Below are positions 4,494 to 64,000 of a stretch of 64,000 nucleotides of DNA, in pieces. The stretch lies in contig NZ_LN869528.1 of the NCBI RefSeq assembly GCF_001244995.1, forward strand, positions 5,001 through 69,000, written 5' to 3'. Position numbers and translations under genes: made by a program. The number at the start of each line of letters is the position of its first letter. The first letter of the stretch is position 1. Origin of the DNA: Intestinimonas massiliensis (ex Afouda et al. 2020). Its GTDB lineage: Bacteria; Bacillota; Clostridia; Oscillospirales; Oscillospiraceae. The notes under the pieces were generated by a model. It searched no databases and was not told the DNA's origin. It was given only the letters and a program-made list of their open reading frames with translations.

Positions 4494-5879
4494 ATGCAGA
4501 ATTCCATCACGGAGGGTCCCATCGCAAAGCCCCTCCTGTCCTTTTTCTTCCCCATCCTGCTGGGCACCTTCTTCCAGCAGCTCTACAACACGGTGGACGC
4601 CATCATCGTGGGCAACTTCGTGGGCAAGGAGGCTCTGGCCGCCGTGGGTGGCGCCACGGCGGTGCTCATCAACTTTCTGGTGAACCTCTTCGTGGGGCTC
4701 TCCTCGGGGGCCACGGTGGTCATCGCCCAGCGGTACGGCGCCCGGGACCCGGAGGGCCTCAGCCGCACCGTCCACACGGCCATCGCCCTGGCCCTGGCCG
4801 CCGGCGTGGGCATCACCGTGCTGGGGGTCTCCGCCTCCGGGCCCGCCCTGCGGCTGATGGGCACGCCGGCCGATGTGCTGCCCCACGCCACCGTCTACCT
4901 GCGGGTCTACTTCGCCGGAAGCATCGCCTCCTTCCTCTACAACATGGGCTCCAGCATCCTGCGGGCCGTGGGCGACACCAAGCGCCCCCTCTATTTTCTG
5001 ATCGCCGCCTGTCTGACCAACATCGTGCTGGACCTGCTCTTCGTGGTGGTGCTGGACCTGGGGGTGCTGGGCGTGGGACTGGCCACGGTGCTGTCCCAGG
5101 TGGTCAGCGCGGCGCTGGTGCTTTTCGTGCTGCTCCAGCCCGCCTGTGTCTATACCCTGGTCCCCAAAGAGGTCCGCTTCTATCCCGGCACCCTGAAAAA
5201 CATCCTGCGCATCGGCGTCCCTGCGGGCATCCAGTCGGATATGTACGCCGTGTCCAACATCCTGCTTCAGTCCTGTATCAACGCCTTCGGCACCGATACC
5301 GTGGCCGCCTACACCGCCTTCGGCAAGGTGGACGGCTTTTACTGGATGATCAGCGGCGCCTTCGGCGTGGCCATCACCACCTTCGTCAGTCAGAATTTCG
5401 GAGCCCAGAAGTACGACCGGCTGCGCAGGAGCGTCCGGGTCTGCCTGGGGCTCACCTTCGGCGTCACCGCCTTCGTCAGTTTGGTGTTTTTTGCCGCAGC
5501 CCCCTGGCTGCTGCGCATGTTCTCCGGCGACACCACCGTTATCTCCCTGGGCGTGGGGATGCTCCGCTTCATCTGCCCCTTCTACTGTACCTTCGTCTGT
5601 ATCGAGATCTTTTCCGGCACCGTCCGGGGCACCGGCGACTCCCTGCCCCCCATGCTGCTCACCTGCGGCGGAGTCTGCGTGCTGCGGGTGCTGTGGGTCT
5701 TCCTGATCCTGCCCCACTACCCCTCCATGGATACCGTGCTGGTGAGCTATCCCGTCAGTTGGGTGGTCACCTCCCTGCTCTACATCCTCTACTACCTCCA
5801 GGGCGGCTGGCTGCGCCGCCGCATCCGGGTCTACGGCTATGTCCCCGAGGAATGCGGGCGCAAACCGGCAAAGGTCTGA
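4494..5879 (+). CDS. MATE family efflux transporter
   Basis: 461 residues with about twelve hydrophobic segments and typical MATE N-terminal sequence (ITEGPIAKPLLSFFFPIL, DAIIVGNFVGKEALAAVGG), repeated in the second half (VAAYTAFGKVDGFYWMISGAFG). It is predicted to export organic cations or drugs across the inner membrane using an ion gradient. It is monocistronic between two terminators. Substrate and coupling ion are not predictable. Confidence 0.93.
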   Translation: MQNSITEGPIAKPLLSFFFPILLGTFFQQLYNTVDAIIVGNFVGKEALAAVGGATAVLINFLVNLFVGLSSGATVVIAQRYGARDPEGLSRTVHTAIALALAAGVGITVLGVSASGPALRLMGTPADVLPHATVYLRVYFAGSIASFLYNMGSSILRAVGDTKRPLYFLIAACLTNIVLDLLFVVVLDLGVLGVGLATVLSQVVSAALVLFVLLQPACVYTLVPKEVRFYPGTLKNILRIGVPAGIQSDMYAVSNILLQSCINAFGTDTVAAYTAFGKVDGFYWMISGAFGVAITTFVSQNFGAQKYDRLRRSVRVCLGLTFGVTAFVSLVFFAAAPWLLRMFSGDTTVISLGVGMLRFICPFYCTFVCIEIFSGTVRGTGDSLPPMLLTCGGVCVLRVLWVFLILPHYPSMDTVLVSYPVSWVVTSLLYILYYLQGGWLRRRIRVYGYVPEECGRKPAKV

Positions 5880-6959: not shown

Positions 6960-6988
6960 TTGACTTTCACTTACTTCAACTGTAGTAT
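6960..6988 (+). promoter_or_regulatory. Promoter of the BlaI / divided-receptor operon
   Basis: TTGACT (6960-6965), 17-bp spacer, TAGTAT (6983-6988). The -10 lies inside the dyad described next. Confidence 0.6.
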
Positions 6989-7001
6989 TATAATAACTAC
7001 A
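6981..7001. promoter_or_regulatory. BlaI/MecI-type operator dyad
   Basis: A 21-bp near-palindrome with perfect TGTAGT / ACTACA arms around an AT-rich centre. TACA/TGTA dyads are the known target of BlaI/MecI repressors. It overlaps the -10 of the operon promoter and lies between the two divergent genes, which suggests autorepression. Confidence 0.7.
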
Positions 7002-7026
7002 TTTGAAATAGATGGGAGCAATGCAC

Positions 7027-7407
7027 ATGAAACGGCTGCCCGACACCGAGCTGGAGGTCATGAAGGCCCTGTGGGCCTCGGAGCGCGCCCCGGTCCCCCG
7101 CTCGTCGCTGGAGGAAGCTCTGCGGGACCGGGGCTGGGCCACCAATACCTTCAACACCTATCTGTCCCGTCTAGCGGAGAAGGGCTTTGTCTCCTGCGAG
7201 AAGCGGGGCAAGACCAACTACTACACCCCCCAGGTCCGTCAGGCGGACTATCTGGCCTTTGAGAGCGGCACGGTGCTCAACAAGGTCTTTGGCAGCTCCC
7301 TAAAGAGCTTCGTGGCCTCGCTGGCCCGGGGCGGCGCGCTGCGCGATGGGGAGCTGGATGAGCTTCAGCAGTACCTGGAGGAGCTGAAGCGAGGGGACCG
7401 GCCTTGA
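7027..7407 (+). CDS. BlaI/MecI/CopY family repressor
   Basis: 126 residues starting at the third of three nearby ATGs; GGGAG (7014-7018) is best spaced for this one. The winged-helix core is typical (LPDTELEVMKALW..., NTFNTYLSRLAEKGFVSCEKRGKTNYYTP), followed by a C-terminal dimerisation helix region. Family members hold target operons off until a BlaR1-type M56 protease triggers their cleavage. It heads the operon containing the divided M56 receptor, its likely partner. Its stop overlaps the TTG start of the next gene. Confidence 0.92.
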   Translation: MKRLPDTELEVMKALWASERAPVPRSSLEEALRDRGWATNTFNTYLSRLAEKGFVSCEKRGKTNYYTPQVRQADYLAFESGTVLNKVFGSSLKSFVASLARGGALRDGELDELQQYLEELKRGDRP

Positions 7408-8597
7408 GGGCCCCCCGTACGCCGCTGACCACCGAGTTTCGGGGCGGATACCGCGCGGTCCGCGGCCGGCTGGAGAATCTCTTCTGCCCCAACGCCCGCC
7501 GCCGGGGCGGCCGCCTGATCGCGGTGGTGGCGCTGCTGGCGGGTCTGGCGGGGTCCCTGGTGGCCTGCCAGACGGATGCCGAAGTCCCATACGGGGTCTA
7601 CGCCGGGGATGGGCTGGTCTGCCAGTTCCCCTTCCTCTCCTATCGGCCCAGCCAGGCGTCCACCGAGCAGTGGCGCGTCACCCTCACCCAGGAGGTCCTG
7701 TTCAGCACCTTCCCTGAGGCGGTTGTCGAACAGGCGTTTCCCACCTGCACGGAGCTGGATTTTGAGGAGGCGACAGCCGCCGGCTTTGCCGAATATGGGG
7801 CCTTCGCTCCGGACCTCTCCAGCTTCACCGACCGCCGCGCCTGGTCGGTGGAGGGCCTGGGGGTCCTCCTGCGGCTGGATGACCAGCTCTGGCTGGCCCT
7901 TCCCTTCCCGGACGGGATCTTTCTCCGGGTCTACCGCCTCACGCCAGCCACAGACAGCCCCATGCGGCAATCGACGCTGGCCGGGCTGCTGGCCGCCGCC
8001 TTCTCCGAGCCGGACCCGGAGGGCAGGGACACCTGGGAGCTCCTCTGTGACCTGCCCGGCGACGGCTGTACCCTGGGAGTCCTGCGCTATGCCGCCGGCA
8101 GCCACGCCGGGGGCTTCGGCAGCCTGCTGCTGGGGGTGGTGGACAACCGGAGCCACCAACCGCTCTCCCCTGCGGTGGAGCTGCGGGGAGACGACAATCG
8201 GCTCGCGGTCTGGACCTCGGAGGGCCTGACCTGGCTGCTGTGCACCGGTTCCACCACCTACCAGGGAGTCGAGAGCGGTTCTGCCCGCCTGTTCACCTTT
8301 GACGGCCGGACCCTGACCTCGGTGACCGAGCTACCGGAATCCGCCCGGGTCAAATCCATTGCGGCGGACCAGTCCCTGGACCTTCCCACCGGAGCCGAGA
8401 CCATGTTCGACCCCGACCAGAGCGCCGGCTTCTGGGCAGCCCATAAGGCCGTCCCCATCCACGGCGGGCTGGACCTCTATGCCCAAAACCCGGACTGGCG
8501 TCCCGACCGGCAGGCCGACGGGGCGCAGTGGGAATTCTTCTGCACCATTCTTCTCGCACCCGACCCAATTCCAGACGAAGGGGTGGTAACACCATGA
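7404..8597 (+). CDS. Helix-plus-sensor chain 1 of a divided M56 receptor
   Basis: 397 residues from a TTG start overlapping the blaI stop, with GAGGGG suitably placed upstream. Residues 1-55 match the segment that follows the protease loop in intact M56 receptors: TPLTTEFRGG, a basic amphipathic stretch, then a membrane helix (about 36-54) ending LVAC. Residues 56-397 are an exported domain with no family I recognise. The same adapter heads the genes at 10471 and 11766, and its counterpart is internal in the intact M56 protein at the right window edge. A lipobox reading of LVAC is possible. The sensor role is inferred. Confidence 0.7.
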   Translation: MRAPRTPLTTEFRGGYRAVRGRLENLFCPNARRRGGRLIAVVALLAGLAGSLVACQTDAEVPYGVYAGDGLVCQFPFLSYRPSQASTEQWRVTLTQEVLFSTFPEAVVEQAFPTCTELDFEEATAAGFAEYGAFAPDLSSFTDRRAWSVEGLGVLLRLDDQLWLALPFPDGIFLRVYRLTPATDSPMRQSTLAGLLAAAFSEPDPEGRDTWELLCDLPGDGCTLGVLRYAAGSHAGGFGSLLLGVVDNRSHQPLSPAVELRGDDNRLAVWTSEGLTWLLCTGSTTYQGVESGSARLFTFDGRTLTSVTELPESARVKSIAADQSLDLPTGAETMFDPDQSAGFWAAHKAVPIHGGLDLYAQNPDWRPDRQADGAQWEFFCTILLAPDPIPDEGVVTP

Positions 8598-9556
8598 AAC
8601 GACTGCTGATCATCGGGGCCGTCATGGCCCTGCTTCTGGCTGCCTGCGCCCCTGCCGGCGAGGCGCCGTCCCCCTCCCGCTCCGCCCCGCCGGAGGCTTC
8701 CCCCACACAGGCCCAGCCGGTGGAGCAGCCCCCCGTGATGGCCGCCGCCCAGGTCTTTGTGGACCAGGACGCCGCCGTCTTTGAAGCCCAGCCCGGGGTG
8801 GTCATCGCCTCCAACGAAATCACCCGCCTGGAGCTGGAGGCCCGGTATCCCGGCATGCTGCCCGGCGCGGACATGGAGATCTGGCGGCTGGAATACCGCC
8901 TTCTCCCCGCCGACATGGCCCAGGTGGCCATCACCGGCGGGCGGGAGACCGACGGGCAGGGCGGCATCACCGAATACACCGCCCAAGGCCGGCCCTATCT
9001 GGTGCTCTCCACCGCCCCCGACGGGAGCTATACCTATCTGGACGTGCTGTGGAGCACCGCGTTTACCGGCGACGCGGCCGACCTGCAAAGGCGGGTCACC
9101 GAGCTGGCCTACGGCGTCCCGGACCTGGAGTACGCCCTGACCCGGGAGGGCTACAACGGCTGGTACGGCCTGGGCAGCCCGGACGTGAGCTTCCTGGAGG
9201 GAGAGCCCGCTGTGGAGCCACTGGACTACGACGTGACCTACGGCGAGGGAGACCGCTGGGAAAAGCGGACCTGGGAGGGTCTGACCGCCGAGTTCTACGT
9301 CAGTGCGGAATACGGCCCCCGTCTTCACGCCCTATCCACCACCCTGCCGGACCTGTCCACCTACCGCGGCGTCTCGGTGGGCGACACCCACGCCCAGGTG
9401 CGGGAGGCCTACCCCGAGATTCACAGCGAGCCCATCTGGGACTATACCGGCGACTACCTGTGGTACGGCGGCGATATGGCCTTCGGCCCCCTGCTGTTTT
9501 TCTATTTCGACGGTGACGCCGTGTCCCACTTCGACCTGGTCACCATTCTGGACTGA
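8594..9556 (+). CDS. Lipoprotein of the BlaI operon, function unknown
   Basis: 320 residues. It has a clear lipoprotein signal (MKRLLIIG..., lipobox LLAAC, Cys near residue 18), a Ser/Pro/Glu-rich linker (to about residue 45), then a globular domain. The ATG overlaps the preceding stop (ATGA), so translation is coupled. Residues 270-290 (GVSVGDTHAQVREAYPE) resemble short gatekeeper motifs of small secreted domains, but no family assignment is safe. Its place between the receptor chains suggests an accessory extracellular sensor or ligand-binding component. Confidence 0.7.
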   Translation: MKRLLIIGAVMALLLAACAPAGEAPSPSRSAPPEASPTQAQPVEQPPVMAAAQVFVDQDAAVFEAQPGVVIASNEITRLELEARYPGMLPGADMEIWRLEYRLLPADMAQVAITGGRETDGQGGITEYTAQGRPYLVLSTAPDGSYTYLDVLWSTAFTGDAADLQRRVTELAYGVPDLEYALTREGYNGWYGLGSPDVSFLEGEPAVEPLDYDVTYGEGDRWEKRTWEGLTAEFYVSAEYGPRLHALSTTLPDLSTYRGVSVGDTHAQVREAYPEIHSEPIWDYTGDYLWYGGDMAFGPLLFFYFDGDAVSHFDLVTILD

Positions 9557-9586
9557 CCGACTCCATCCATCGACGGAGGTCCTTCT

Positions 9587-10456
9587 ATGACGGACTTGCT
9601 CATGACCCTGGCCGAGATCTCTCTCACCATGTCGGCGGTCATCCTTCTGCTGCTGGCCCTTGGCCCGCTGCTGGCCAGGCGCTACGCCGCCCGGTGGCGG
9701 TACTGGGCCTGGCTGGTGGTGGCGGTGCGGCTGCTGGTCCCGGTCAACCTCTCCCTGCCCCGGGCCCCCGTGCAGTTGGAGGCCCCGGCGGACCGGATAG
9801 TCTATACCTACCCCCCGCCGGCAGCGCCCTCCGCCGCCCCGGTCGGGCCGGAGTTTTCCGCCGAATCGCCCTCCCCGCTCCCCTCCGTCCCGCCGGAGAC
9901 CTCCGCCGGCGCGGTGCGCAGCCTCACTCTGGGCAGCGTCGCCGCCTGGGTCTGGCTGGCGGGCGCCGCGGCGCTGACCGTCTGGTACGGGGCGGGCTAT
10001 CTCCGCTTCCTCCGCTACGTCCGCCGCTGGTCCTCGCCCGCCGTCCGACCCGCCGCGCGGGAGACGCTCTCCGCCCTGCAAACGGAGCTGGACGTCCGGC
10101 GGCCGGTCCGTCTGCTGGTCTGTCCCGGCCTCTCCGGCCCCATGATGGCCGGCCTCCTCCGGCCGGTGATCCTGCTGCCCCATGAGGAGGAGGACAGCGA
10201 GGCCCTCTGGTTCATTCTTCGGCATGAGCTCACCCACTGCCGCCGCCGGGACATCGCCTACAAGACCCTGCTGCTGTGCGCCAAGGTGGTCCACTGGTGC
10301 AATCCGCTGGTGTGGCTCATGGTCCGCGCCGCGGAGGGGGATCTGGAGCGCGCCTGCGACGACCGCGTGGTGGCCGGGCTAGGCCCGGAGGCCCGGGCCC
10401 GGTACGGACAGATCATCCTGGCGGCGCTGGGCTCCGGCCGGGCGTCCCGCCCATAA
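9587..10456 (+). CDS. M56 (BlaR1-like) protease chain lacking the fourth helix and sensor domain
   Basis: 289 residues. It has two membrane helices near the N-terminus (about 8-30 and 36-53), a Pro/Ser-rich exposed loop, a third helix (about 112-135), then the cytoplasmic zinc-protease loop with HELTH at residues 213-217, a downstream helix with ERACDD, and an abrupt end at GSGRASRP. Intact BlaR1 relatives continue with a basic TTxFxG segment, helix 4 and an extracellular sensor; here these are absent and appear at the start of the next gene, which has its own RBS. It is predicted to cleave or trigger loss of the BlaI-type repressor at 7027. Confidence 0.8.
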   Translation: MTDLLMTLAEISLTMSAVILLLLALGPLLARRYAARWRYWAWLVVAVRLLVPVNLSLPRAPVQLEAPADRIVYTYPPPAAPSAAPVGPEFSAESPSPLPSVPPETSAGAVRSLTLGSVAAWVWLAGAAALTVWYGAGYLRFLRYVRRWSSPAVRPAARETLSALQTELDVRRPVRLLVCPGLSGPMMAGLLRPVILLPHEEEDSEALWFILRHELTHCRRRDIAYKTLLLCAKVVHWCNPLVWLMVRAAEGDLERACDDRVVAGLGPEARARYGQIILAALGSGRASRP

Positions 10457-10470
10457 AAGGAGGTCTTTTC

Positions 10471-11751
10471 ATGTGTTCCCATCCCCGCCCTGGCCGGGCG
10501 CCCCACACCCCCTTTTCCACCGAGTTTAAGGGCGGCGCCCGCGCCGTCCGGGAGCGGCTGCGCAATCTCTTTCTGGGGCCCCGCCGGCAGGGCCGCGCCC
10601 TGGTGCTGTGCGTGGCCGTTCTGGCCCTCTTCACCGGAGGGATGGTGGCCTGCCGCACCGCCGTCCGGGAGACGCCCCCAGCTTCCGACACCGCCGTCCC
10701 CCCCCTGATGATGCTCCCTCCCACCGCCGAGCTCTTCGGTATCACCGGGGTGGAGGCGGCCCTCTACGAGGCCGCCCGCTGGGCTCATAACCCCTACGGC
10801 TGGCAGAACGGCACGCTGGCGCTCCCCTTCGTGGGGGTGTACGCCAGCTATGAGGACGGCAACGGGGACACCGTCTATCTCTGCAACCTGTGGACCCGTT
10901 ATTACTACGACTTTCTGGCCACCCGGGGGGCCAACAGCGGCGGGGGCGGGGGCCCCGCCGCCATCACGGTAGCGGGGGACGGCTCCTCCGGCCGCTTCCG
11001 CTCCGTGAAAAGCGCCGCCGACGGCGAGGGCTGGGCCCAGTCCATCCGGGACCTGTGCGCGCCGGTCCCTGGTCTGGCCGACCAAATTCTGGAGGGCGCG
11101 ATTGCCTATACTCTCACCACACCCGACACCGACACCCTGCTGGCCCAATACGTCCAGGCGGTCATCGGAACGGTGGACGAAACCAACGTCAACAAGGAGG
11201 CCGCGGCGGACGCCTACCTGGCCGGGCTCATCGCGGCCGGACCGGGGGACCGGCTTTACGACGCGGCGGTTTCCGCCTTCGGCTCCGGCGCCTGGGACCA
11301 CGTGACCTACGCCATGGAGCAGACCGAGAGCGTGGAGACCCGCCCGGCCTATGTCCTGCGCGCCACCGGAGAGGAGATCACCGAGGCGGAGTACACCGCC
11401 CTCAATCTGGACGTCTGGACCGGGCTGGCGGAGGAAAACGGCTTTACCGTGGGGGAGCTGCTGGACGCCGCCGCCTTCGATGCCCCCGGCCAGGTGTCTG
11501 CCCCAGAGGGGGAGCGGGCCGCCCGGGCGCGGGAGCTCTTTCTGGCCCACATCGACCAGCTTCCTGCCTGCTACACCTCGGTGTCCACCTGTGACGCCTG
11601 GGAGGTGGAGCTGGCCTTTCACGGTCAGACCGTCGGGAGCGACGGGTCCGATCACTATCACTTTGTGGTATCCAACCGCCGCGGAGTCTGGGGGGTGGAA
11701 GTTCCCCTGACCTGGGATGGGCACAACCCGGACTCTCCCACCGGCGATTGA
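10471..11751 (+). CDS. Helix-plus-sensor chain 2 of a divided M56 receptor
   Basis: 426 residues. Its RBS, AAAGGAGG at 10456-10463, lies in the 14-bp gap after the protease chain. Residues 1-60 carry the adapter (HTPFSTEFKGG, RAVRERLRNLF) and a hydrophobic helix ending MVAC. The exported part is about 360 residues with low-complexity Gly stretches and a C-terminal beta-rich region (WEVELAFHG, HYHFVVSN, GVWGVEVPL). It directly follows the protease chain, where helix 4 and the sensor would be in a one-piece receptor, so it is the most likely cognate partner. Confidence 0.7.
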   Translation: MCSHPRPGRAPHTPFSTEFKGGARAVRERLRNLFLGPRRQGRALVLCVAVLALFTGGMVACRTAVRETPPASDTAVPPLMMLPPTAELFGITGVEAALYEAARWAHNPYGWQNGTLALPFVGVYASYEDGNGDTVYLCNLWTRYYYDFLATRGANSGGGGGPAAITVAGDGSSGRFRSVKSAADGEGWAQSIRDLCAPVPGLADQILEGAIAYTLTTPDTDTLLAQYVQAVIGTVDETNVNKEAAADAYLAGLIAAGPGDRLYDAAVSAFGSGAWDHVTYAMEQTESVETRPAYVLRATGEEITEAEYTALNLDVWTGLAEENGFTVGELLDAAAFDAPGQVSAPEGERAARARELFLAHIDQLPACYTSVSTCDAWEVELAFHGQTVGSDGSDHYHFVVSNRRGVWGVEVPLTWDGHNPDSPTGD

Positions 11752-11765
11752 AAGGAGCAGACTCT

Positions 11766-12833
11766 ATGAAGGAAAGACGTATCGCCCCCCGCACCCCCTT
11801 CACCACCGAGTTCCGGGGCGGGACCCGGGCTGTCCAGGAGCGGCTGTGCAACCTCTTCACCGGGGTCAAACGCCGGGGGACCCCGCTGGTGGCCCTGACC
11901 CTGGCCCTCACGCTGCTGGCCGGAGGGCTGGTAGCCTGCACCTCTTCCGTCCAGGCCGCAAACACCTTCGACGTGCCCGATCCGGTCTTTGAACTGGCCC
12001 GGGATCTGGTACCCGACATCAGCGGGGCCAAGCTCACCCATCTGGCCTGGGCCGGCAGCTACAGCGGCCTGTTTGAGAACGCCACCGTGGATGCCTTCTC
12101 CTATGACGTGGGCGTGCCGGTGGAGGACCCGGACGGCGTTCCTCTGGTGGGCGGCCAGTATGTGGATGAGGATGGGCTCTTCCACGAGGGCCCGTACTCC
12201 CTGCTGGCGGTGCTGAACCGGGAGGGCAACTTCACCTTTTTGGCCGACGCCGGGCCTTGGATCGACGGCCCCGCGCCCCTGCTGCTTTCTGACGCCCTCC
12301 GTACCATCGGAGAGTCCAGGGGGGACGAGGCCCTCACGGCCGCCGGGGAAATGCTCTTTGTCCAGTACCACCTGGATCTGGCCGACGAGGCTCTGGGCTG
12401 GCTCACCGGCGCCGCCCCATGCACCGGGGATACCTACACCGACGGAGCGGGCGTGGTGTGGCTCCAGTTGGCGGGCTACGAGAAGTGGCACCCCGATCTG
12501 CGGGTGGATGATCAGGTGCTGTCCCAGCTCTATTTCATCTTTCCCCGGGAGCTGGCCGTCCGGATCATGCAGCAGTATGTCTATACCCCCGACGGTCTCC
12601 TGCTGGAGCGGGACGGCAGGCTGTGGATGCGGCAGGACGCCATCCAGCGCTCGTACTGGCCCTACACCGCCGACCGGGATACCCTGGCGGTGGTGGAGTT
12701 TACCAGTACCCGCTGTGTATTCACCATGGAGGGCACCGACCATGATGAACCCGCTACCTGGGTCTTTACCCTGGATGGTAAGGAGAGCAACATCGTCTGG
12801 TTGTTTACACAATACTACACCCTCTCTTCCTGA
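11766..12833 (+). CDS. Helix-plus-sensor chain 3 of a divided M56 receptor
   Basis: 355 residues, start chosen by AAAGGAG at 11752-11758. The N-terminus has the same adapter (RTPFTTEFRGG, RAVQERLCNLF), a basic KRR, then a helix ending LVAC. The extracellular part differs from chains 1 and 2 and is not recognised; it is rich in Asp, Leu and Tyr with alternating strand-like segments. It is the last gene of the operon before a long terminator. Duplication and divergence of the sensor half is the simplest explanation for the three chains. Confidence 0.7.
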   Translation: MKERRIAPRTPFTTEFRGGTRAVQERLCNLFTGVKRRGTPLVALTLALTLLAGGLVACTSSVQAANTFDVPDPVFELARDLVPDISGAKLTHLAWAGSYSGLFENATVDAFSYDVGVPVEDPDGVPLVGGQYVDEDGLFHEGPYSLLAVLNREGNFTFLADAGPWIDGPAPLLLSDALRTIGESRGDEALTAAGEMLFVQYHLDLADEALGWLTGAAPCTGDTYTDGAGVVWLQLAGYEKWHPDLRVDDQVLSQLYFIFPRELAVRIMQQYVYTPDGLLLERDGRLWMRQDAIQRSYWPYTADRDTLAVVEFTSTRCVFTMEGTDHDEPATWVFTLDGKESNIVWLFTQYYTLSS

Positions 12834-12878
12834 AAAACCAGAAAGGCCGGAGGCAATGCCTCCGGCCTTTCTGGTTTT
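12834..12878. terminator. Bidirectional terminator at the end of the divided-receptor operon
   Basis: A perfect 21-bp stem (12834-12854 with 12858-12878) around AAT, with A4 and T4 flanks. It separates the operon from the converging PstS-like gene. Confidence 0.92.
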
Positions 12879-62430: not shown

Positions 62431-64000
62431 CTACCGATCCTCCCAGCGCTTCTCCATAGCCTCGTCCCGCTGGATGCGCACCGCCCGGCCGTCCTCCATC
62501 TCCACGGTCAACCCCATCCAGGGCGGCGTTTGGGAGGATACCTCAGTGGCCATCCGAAGGCCCTGGCCCGGGTGGACGGTGCTCCGCCCCCACCGGGTCT
62601 GGAAGCCTACGTACTCCGCGTCCTCCGCAACGGGCACAGCGTACAGGGCCAGGCCCTCCGCCACCCGCTCCCGGCTGTGGTCGTAAAAATACCACACGCC
62701 CTTCGCCTCATCGTAGCCGTCGGCCTCCAGCACGGCCAGAGAGTCCGGCGGGCCCAGCCGATCGCCAGTGGAGGAGGGCCCCACACTGTAGAGCACCATG
62801 TGGTAGACCCCGTCGGACAGAGCGCTCCCGTCGGCGCGATACGCCGCCGTCATGGGAAAGGTCCGCTCACTCCCCGCCCCGTCAGTCACCCGGAGGGTGC
62901 AGGCGGGGTCCCTGGCCACCGCGGTCCGGAGCTCCTCCTCGGCAGCCGTATTCCGCCCGGTGCGAAACCGGACCGAGCCATGGCGCAGATCCTCGCCCAA
63001 CTCGTCGGGCTGCCCGTCAAAGGGCGTCACCCCCACCGCTTCCAGCAGAGGGCTGTCCCGGTCGAACAGGAGCTGATAGTGCAGGGTGTCCGCCGTGACC
63101 TCCACCCCCTGCCCCTCCTCCCGCGCGTCCAGGAAAGCGTATTCCAGGTCAAACTGAAACCAGTTGATGCCCATGCCGTCCGGGCCGGTATAGGTCAGGG
63201 TCAGGCTCTGGGGCTCAAAGCGCTCCAGCGGGGTCCGGGGCTCCCCCGTCTCCTGGACCGGCGGGGTCTGGGGGAGCGCCGCCGTCCGGCAGGCCCCCAG
63301 CCCGCCCGCCAGCGCTACGGCGGTACACAGCACGGCCAGGGCCGCCCGTCCCGGCCGCTTGGGACCGCCGTCCATTACGGCTCGGAGCCGCCGTTTCAGC
63401 GCCCGCTTCTCCCCGGAAAACGAGGTGGTCAGCGCGGGGGCCGACATGCTCACTGCCCGGAGCAGCACCCGGCCGTAGGCCCGGCGTTCCTCCAGGCTCC
63501 GGCCCTGGAGGACCTGGGCGTCACAGGCCATCTCCACGTCCCGCTCCGCCACCCGCCGCATGCCCCATACCAGAGGATTGAACCAGTGGATGGCATTGGC
63601 CAGCACCAACAGGAGCTGGAACCACAGGTCCCGCCGCCGGGCGTGGGTATATTCGTGCAGCAGGGCCGCCTCCTCCGCCCCGCCGGTCGGCGTTACAATG
63701 ACCGGACGGAGCCAGCCCATCAGCAGGGGCGTCCCCACCAGGCCACACTCCAACAGCGGGATTCCGCCATACGTCCCCGCGGGACGGCTCCAGCGCCGTA
63801 TGCGGCGCCGGAACGCCCGGCAGTGCAGAATCTGATCCCCCAAAAACAGGAGAGCCCCCGCGCCCCACAGGAACGCCAGCAGCCATTCGGCGGGGATGCG
63901 CCGCACCTCGACCACGGGGGCGGCGTCTTCCCCTCCGGAGCCCGCGGGCCCATCCTCCGTCCGGACCACCCGCTCCATCGAAGGGGCCCCAGCCGCTGCC
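62431..64000 (-). CDS. One-piece M56 (BlaR1-like) receptor, partial at the window edge
   Basis: At least 523 residues, open to the right edge, so the N-terminal helices are missing. It shows a third helix region (EWLLAFLWGAGALLFLGDQIL), the zinc loop with HEYTH and later EMACDAQ, the connecting segment ALTTSFSGEKRALKRRL, helix 4 (AALAVLCTAVALAGGLGAC) and a 260-residue extracellular domain. This continuous chain is the layout that appears divided at 9587-12833. A BlaI-type gene is expected just outside the window. Confidence 0.88.
   Translation of the reverse strand, partial: AAAGAPSMERVVRTEDGPAGSGGEDAAPVVEVRRIPAEWLLAFLWGAGALLFLGDQILHCRAFRRRIRRWSRPAGTYGGIPLLECGLVGTPLLMGWLRPVIVTPTGGAEEAALLHEYTHARRRDLWFQLLLVLANAIHWFNPLVWGMRRVAERDVEMACDAQVLQGRSLEERRAYGRVLLRAVSMSAPALTTSFSGEKRALKRRLRAVMDGGPKRPGRAALAVLCTAVALAGGLGACRTAALPQTPPVQETGEPRTPLERFEPQSLTLTYTGPDGMGINWFQFDLEYAFLDAREEGQGVEVTADTLHYQLLFDRDSPLLEAVGVTPFDGQPDELGEDLRHGSVRFRTGRNTAAEEELRTAVARDPACTLRVTDGAGSERTFPMTAAYRADGSALSDGVYHMVLYSVGPSSTGDRLGPPDSLAVLEADGYDEAKGVWYFYDHSRERVAEGLALYAVPVAEDAEYVGFQTRWGRSTVHPGQGLRMATEVSSQTPPWMGLTVEMEDGRAVRIQRDEAMEKRWEDR

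Follow-up and report, generated by a model that had tools for sequence, protein, structure and literature searches.

A compact operon in Intestinimonas massiliensis probably encodes a BlaI/BlaR1-type receptor that is split into separate polypeptides, with several sensor chains docking on one M56 protease and a signal leading to cleavage of the BlaI repressor. The operon occupies positions 6960-12878 of the stretch analysed (64,000 nucleotides of contig NZ_LN869528.1, hereafter the window), with a promoter/operator at its head (6960-7005) and a terminator hairpin at its end (12834-12878), and its genes follow the order BlaI repressor, chain A, plain lipoprotein, truncated M56 protease, chain B and chain C (Table 1). 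An earlier note on this DNA, made from the letters alone, had proposed a divided M56 receptor and suggested a search for stand-alone sensor adapters beside truncated M56 genes. That search supports the proposal, as such adapters occur at 46 of 47 truncated loci and at 0 of 46 one-piece loci. We favour a split receptor over an assembly error or decay because truncated proteases and stand-alone adapters associate strictly, the contact residues are kept, the joint fold is predicted with confidence and the genes are under purifying selection. Judged by its sequence and catalytic residues, the protease is a member of the M56/BlaR1 family without the usual one-polypeptide architecture, which the Pfam model itself does not demand. 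The NCBIfam cut-off does not place it among the beta-lactam receptors: the family of BlaR1 beta-lactam receptors (NF000326), whose penicillin-binding sensor has SxxK, matches its protease part only, at 95 bits against an equivalog cut-off of 400 bits.

Protease and adapter

The genes lie where the earlier note had placed them. The protease gene (9587-10456) encodes 289 amino acids with the zinc motif HELTH, and its match to PF05569 (171 bits, cut-off 31) runs from position 2 to 269 of 296, so the protein ends before the fourth helix, as that note had read it. Downstream of the stop codon (10454-10456) come AAAGGAGGT and an ATG that lies in another reading frame, and the junction with chain B is therefore a designed gene boundary, not a one-base indel. 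Homologues that always form one continuous gene, together with indels between 10440 and 10480 on resequencing, had been named as grounds for refutation; what we found are 47 split loci and the change of frame at the junction. Chains A, B and C have in common an N-terminal segment of about 56 amino acids with 56-58% identity (pairwise BLASTP E 1e-14 to 6e-11), the adapter, which in the one-piece paralogue L003 of the same genome (loci carry L numbers here) is continuous with the protease (RYGEVLLHAAGGGGPVLCTRFGDSGTRLKGRLMNLFQTKRTGAAMVCVVLAGAVLAGGLVACES). The genes at 7404, 10471 and 11766 do begin, as had been claimed, with the segment that follows the protease in one-piece receptors. Beyond this segment BLASTP among the three chains gave nothing significant except a low-complexity extension, which agrees with the description of the exported domains as unrelated-looking.

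Built from one-piece and split rows together, a sequence profile matches BlaR1 of Staphylococcus aureus (8exp) over residues 4-320 (E=2e-27), with autocleavage residue F284 and R294 in register with the adapter. BlaR1 is cleaved spontaneously between Ser283 and Phe284, and its autocleavage loop sits in the active site whether cut or uncut; in the BlaR1 dimer, helices a9 and a10 (the fourth transmembrane helix, TM4) are domain-swapped, and Arg294' bridges to Asp246 across the subunits (PMC9834060). The gene boundary in the split loci appears to fall in this self-cleaved loop, and the detached module would be the very part that acts in trans between the subunits of BlaR1, so that a split at this point may be tolerable.

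The residues involved are kept on both sides of the split. In 16 diverse split proteases, H213-E214-H217, the third zinc ligand E254, and D258, Y273 and I277 (corresponding to D246, Y261 and I265 of BlaR1) are invariant, and the Arg294 equivalent is present in 131/131 split and 50/50 one-piece adapters. At the autocleavage site, 130 of the 131 split adapters have Phe or Leu at P4, and all of them have Leu, Phe or Met at P1'. In an alignment with an S. aureus reference row, the P1' of BlaI from split operons is Leu in 43/45 sequences; S. aureus BlaI is cleaved between Asn101 and Phe102 (PMC9834060).

Joint fold and selection

At locus L094 (Intestinimonas) the next adapter is in frame with the protease, and reading through one TGA yields a natural linked pair for structure prediction. 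One-piece rows served as the bridge between protease and adapter in the prediction alignment; an alignment that combined unpaired rows of the two was discarded, MAFFT having scattered the adapter rows over the protease. The read-through model reached a mean predicted local distance difference test (pLDDT) score of 88.4 and a predicted template modelling (pTM) score of 0.84, with a pLDDT of about 92 for a9 and TM4. At E<=0.001 its matches were BlaR1 entries alone, with alignments of up to 342-351 columns. Ratios of nonsynonymous to synonymous substitution rates (dN/dS) in close pairs are 0.13-0.39 for the protease and 0.15-0.39 for whole chains, values that indicate purifying selection on both kinds of gene.

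Distribution and descent

The loci were counted after removal of duplicate contigs. BlaI lies upstream in 47/47 truncated M56 loci, which come mainly from Oscillospiraceae, and the 46 loci with stand-alone adapter chains have 1-7 of them; the contig of the one exception ends 225 bases after the protease match. Between 1 and 17 residues follow the protease match in 45/47 split loci, compared with 210-1017 in one-piece genes, and longer tails occur in L102 (34 amino acids) and L161 (76 amino acids, which may be a frame error). Clusters of stand-alone adapters were found in most members of the genus, e.g. seven in 10 kb in genome G007, and a wider search (a family search and a scan of named genomes) reached Flavonifractor, Pseudoflavonifractor, Flintibacter, Colidextribacter and Lawsonibacter metagenome-assembled genomes (MAGs). 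The sensors of split and one-piece receptors together fall into about 80 clusters.

The truncated proteases of Oscillospiraceae form one clade, with support in the Shimodaira-Hasegawa-like approximate likelihood ratio test (SH-aLRT) of 97 for 40 rows and, in a second tree, of 95 for 42 rows; the phylogeny indicates that in this main clade the split is an old state inherited across about 40 genomes of several genera. Four split BlaI-M56-adapter loci were found beyond Oscillospiraceae, L237-L239 in another family of the class and L242 in another family of the order, with adapters of the form [FR]LSTSFSESGKKAK or close to it. That all split loci, these four included, go back to one origin was neither shown nor rejected (approximately unbiased test, p 0.49), and the splits of L237-L239 and L242 possibly arose independently.

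Sensor domains and the lipobox

The helix that the earlier note had described as ending in VAC is present, but VAC is not merely its end: it belongs to a lipobox (L-V-A-C). TM4 ends in a lipobox of the form [LIMV][VAI][ASG]C in 127/131 split chains and, by the same test, in 34/50 one-piece receptors. The lipobox of Gram-positive lipoproteins has the general form [LVI][ASTVI][GAS]C and follows the hydrophobic segment. The exported domains of the split chains also occur in plain lipoproteins, and the chains may be processed by signal peptidase II. In S. aureus BlaR1, a signal peptidase cut lies between TM4 and the sensor, and beta-lactam has been proposed to block that cut (PMC9834060).

The plain lipoprotein at 8594-9556 is one such case. 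Its C-terminal ~190 amino acids match the exported domain, the last sensor domain, found in about 20 adapter chains at other loci (best BLASTP E=1e-28 over 194 amino acids with 42% identity; phmmer to E=3e-31). A further case is L041 (minus strand, reverse-complement 8048-9946): the gene at the same place in the operon encodes an ordinary lipoprotein whose sensor is ~70% identical (E=1e-115) to that of adapter chains of two congeners, with a normal lipoprotein signal up to the Cys in place of adapter and TM4, i.e. a natural swap; the window gene and one gene of L126 are cases of the same kind. Four points go beyond the earlier note: the gene at 8594-9556 inside the operon, the presence of a lipobox, the coincidence of the split with the autocleavage site of BlaR1, and a lipoprotein sensor that lacks the adapter. 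In relatives such as L120:10887-12830, domains like those of chain A and of the 8594-9556 lipoprotein occur on one chain.

Neither Pfam nor NCBIfam gave a match for the exported domains of chains A, B and C. Applied to 65 stand-alone chains, the same databases returned only scattered BNR/FG-GAP/VPS10, XAC2610-type and one LytR-CpsA-Psr match, and no sensor of the window chains or of the 65-chain set matched a penicillin-binding family. The single LytR-CpsA-Psr match (Pfam E=5e-31) is to a cell-wall glycopolymer transferase family. Orthologous sensors are retained between genera. A full chain from L120 was predicted with pLDDT 80 and pTM 0.61; the model gives no usable guess at the ligand, its PDB matches being mostly beta-propeller proteins with template modelling scores below 0.2 by query length. 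Two one-piece M56 receptors of the same genome (L002 and L003, contig C7) have an exported part ending in a seeming M23-type peptidase domain (HSGVDIAAPEGTPVLA...GNYVELTHENG). Another one-piece M56 receptor gene, in which the adapter motif recurs, lies in part on the minus strand at 63379-64000 of the window and continues past the window end (C6:68379-69254 of the same genome).

Proposed mechanism

In the proposed receptor, the M56 chain would supply transmembrane helices 1-3 (TM1-3) and the zinc protease, while each sensor chain would supply the active-site loop, a9, TM4 and the exported part. Chains A, B and C could each dock on the common protease via a9 and TM4, the contact that already joins the two subunits in the domain-swapped dimer of BlaR1. 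At rest, the N-terminal peptide of the docked chain, which resembles the BlaI site (P4 Phe/Leu, P1' Leu/Phe), would sit in the active site and keep it shut; once the exported domain receives a signal, TM4 and a9 would move and pull the peptide out, and the freed protease would cut BlaI at its FVA[AS]/L site, derepressing the operon and any further targets. Taken together, the conserved trans-contact residues and the fused-chain prediction strongly imply that the chains physically assemble and that several sensors switch the protease. We infer that this assembly occurs in trans, that sensors compete or mix on one protease, that the peptide acts as a pseudosubstrate and that BlaI is cleaved. A more far-reaching version, which we put forward tentatively and would not yet favour, is a multi-input receptor whose M56 effector subunit is occupied, possibly as mixed pairs in a dimer, by any of up to seven sensor subunits, each with a pseudosubstrate plug. 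Lipoprotein processing where TM4 ends would, in this version, time each subunit, and a single repressor would thereby integrate several envelope signals.

Several observations weigh against the split receptor as we describe it. P1 in the split chains is often Pro, Glu or Arg, unlike in BlaI (Ala/Ser). The L094 model aligns to BlaR1 at a high root mean square deviation (10-15 Å, template modelling score 0.5), for which the swapped TM4 is a likely cause, and since its alignment contained one-piece relatives, the fused model speaks for compatibility of the two halves, not for independent docking of separate chains. A second good operator was not found in the genome of the organism, where matches with two mismatches do not exceed the control. 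Finally, the exported domain might be severed from TM4 at the lipobox, and a simple push-pull mechanism would then fail; with the lipobox and the lipoprotein versions of the sensors hinting at possible processing, what follows ligand binding is the weakest part of the explanation.

Alternative explanations

The same signs of processing open two other ways of understanding the chains. In one, a variant of the split receptor that we regard as rather unlikely, a newly inserted chain docks on the protease and controls it only until signal peptidase II cuts the lipobox, and the operon reads the ligand- or stress-dependent processing of several lipoprotein sensors. The strong lipobox, the natural exchange of adapter and TM4 for a normal signal peptide at the same point, and the signal peptidase cut in S. 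aureus BlaR1 that beta-lactam is proposed to block (PMC9834060) would fit such a gate; however, the n-region before the hydrophobic stretch is about 35 amino acids, long for a lipoprotein signal, and 16/50 one-piece receptors lack a lipobox. The other explanation, which seems improbable to us, would make the chains lipoprotein substrates, not sensors: adapter and TM4 would be a long signal peptide with a recognition tag that M56 trims or removes, thereby controlling lipoprotein maturation or release. Such a role could account for the lipobox in nearly all split chains, for the Cys at the end of the transmembrane helix in many one-piece receptors as well, for the homologous sensors on ordinary lipoprotein signals (L041, and similarly 8594-9556 and the L126 gene) and for the autocleavage-site peptide kept at the N-terminus of every chain. 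It leaves aside that BlaI is in the operon at all 47 loci and that one-piece paralogues carry the same adapter as part of a receptor, and a bare cleavage tag would have no need of the Asp-Arg pair and helix a9, both of which are kept; P1 Pro or Glu also looks unfavourable for cleavage.

Decay and error are far less probable. Truncations or broken frames do occur in a few chains (L041 near 11527, L087 near 5335), as would be expected if duplicated one-piece receptor operons were breaking up and the stand-alone chains were relics, but dN/dS is well below 1 in all chains and proteases tested, functional residues are invariant, the state is inherited across ~40 genomes of several genera, and orthologous sensors are kept between genera. 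The pseudogene reading, for which we see very little chance, was rejected on the dN/dS values and the invariant residues. A normal gene split by a sequencing or assembly error has a practically negligible probability: the reading frames differ, a ribosome-binding site stands at the junction, and the same boundary recurs in independent isolate genomes and MAGs, and on these grounds of frame, ribosome-binding site and conservation the frameshift or artefact was rejected as well.

Operon features and neighbourhood

The BlaI repressor heads the operon, as the earlier note had it, and its PF03965 match is given in Table 1. Its start is probably at 7027, not 7012, judging from homologues that begin MKRLPDTELEVM. 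The TTG start of chain A at 7404 overlaps the BlaI stop (TTGA) and agrees with homologues beginning M[RK]AP; this overlap and the ATGA-type overlaps at many gene boundaries of split loci suggest translational coupling. BlaI is expected to bind the dyad at its own promoter. About half of the split loci have a related dyad, TGTAGTAT...ACTACA, upstream of blaI, with perfect 20-bp arms in L040; the operator dyad has a single exact copy in its own genome, and a search of the genus with a longer operator pattern found only the same site.

Table 1. Features of the operon, by position in the window (a slash within a motif marks a cleavage site)
Feature	Position	Strand	Description
Sigma-70-type promoter	6960..6994	+	TTGACT-17-TAGTAT and, 6 bases on, TTCACT-17-TATAAT; overlaps operator; consensus scan, 2 sites vs 0.3 expected
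Operator-like dyad CAACTGTAGTATTATAATAACTACATTTG	6977..7005	no strand	Directly 5' of blaI; core TGTAGT-N9-ACTACA
BlaI-type repressor	7012..7407	+	PF03965 E=1.5e-24; predicted cleavage site KSFVAS/LARGG (site from alignment)
Chain A adapter	7404..7568	+	Autocleavage-site peptide PRTPLTTE/F, helix a9 with Arg294 equivalent, TM4, lipobox SLVAC
Chain A exported sensor domain	7569..8597	+	Without Pfam match; relatives in other split chains
Plain lipoprotein	8594..9556	+	Signal MKRLLIIGAVMALLLAAC; sensor module without adapter, C-terminal ~190 amino acids match exported domains of adapter chains
Truncated M56/BlaR1 protease chain	9587..10456	+	TM1-3 and gluzincin domain, HELTH at 10223-10237; ends before autocleavage loop
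Chain B adapter	10471..10653	+	TPFSTE/FKGG, helix a9, TM4, lipobox MVAC
Chain B exported sensor domain	10654..11751	+	Unrelated to A and C by BLASTP
Chain C adapter	11766..11939	+	TPFTTE/FRGG, helix a9, TM4, lipobox LVAC
Chain C exported sensor domain	11940..12833	+	Orthologous domains in other Intestinimonas split chains, 31-41% identity
Operon terminator	12834..12878	+	21-bp perfect hairpin, then T-rich tail; -39.8 kcal/mol, z=-8.95

Upstream of the operon, at 4494-5879 of the window, lies a MATE-type transporter-like gene, and a MATE-type gene is likewise found directly 5' of blaI in other Intestinimonas (L039, L041, L043, L045). Chains are placed between blaI and the protease only in Intestinimonas and its nearest relatives (L048/L094, L080/L096, L039, L041, L081 and the window); elsewhere all sensor chains sit after the protease.

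Relation to known systems and significance

The split system has in common with BlaR1/BlaI of S. aureus (8exp, 8exs; PMC9834060) an M56 protease with TM1-3, the autocleavage loop, a9, TM4, an exported sensor and BlaI in the operon, and it keeps the Asp246-Arg294, Tyr261 and Ile265 equivalents. It differs from S. aureus BlaR1 in that the polypeptide is divided at the autocleavage loop, 1-7 alternative sensor chains are present, no penicillin-binding sensor is recognised and the chains carry a lipobox. The one-piece M56 receptors of Oscillospiraceae (L003, L098, L104) resemble it in their adapter and TM4, mostly with a lipobox, in the upstream BlaI and in some related exported domains, but they consist of one gene with one sensor and have no stand-alone adapters at any of the 46 loci. 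Like the split protease, mycobacterial BlaR (discussed in PMC9834060) is an M56 protease without a sensor of its own, so that both need a signal from another protein; adapter-TM4 sensor chains are not described for the mycobacterial protein, and its suggested partner is a PASTA kinase (PMC9834060). The earlier note knew of no description of such an arrangement, and we found no paper on split M56 receptors in the open literature searched, whose coverage excludes most subscription journals.

BlaR1 has so far been studied as a single chain with its sensor fixed to the protease, and the route of the transmembrane signal is still debated. A receptor naturally cut at the autocleavage loop would offer a dissection kit, in which sensors can be swapped, added back or made to compete in trans, and a9, TM4 and the Asp-Arg pair stand out as the contact set that every sensor has retained. 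To judge from the absent family matches, annotations of the family would at present go no further than truncated M56 peptidases and hypothetical proteins. With 142 stand-alone chains collected and many different exported domains among them, it is a large uncharacterised family in common gut bacteria.

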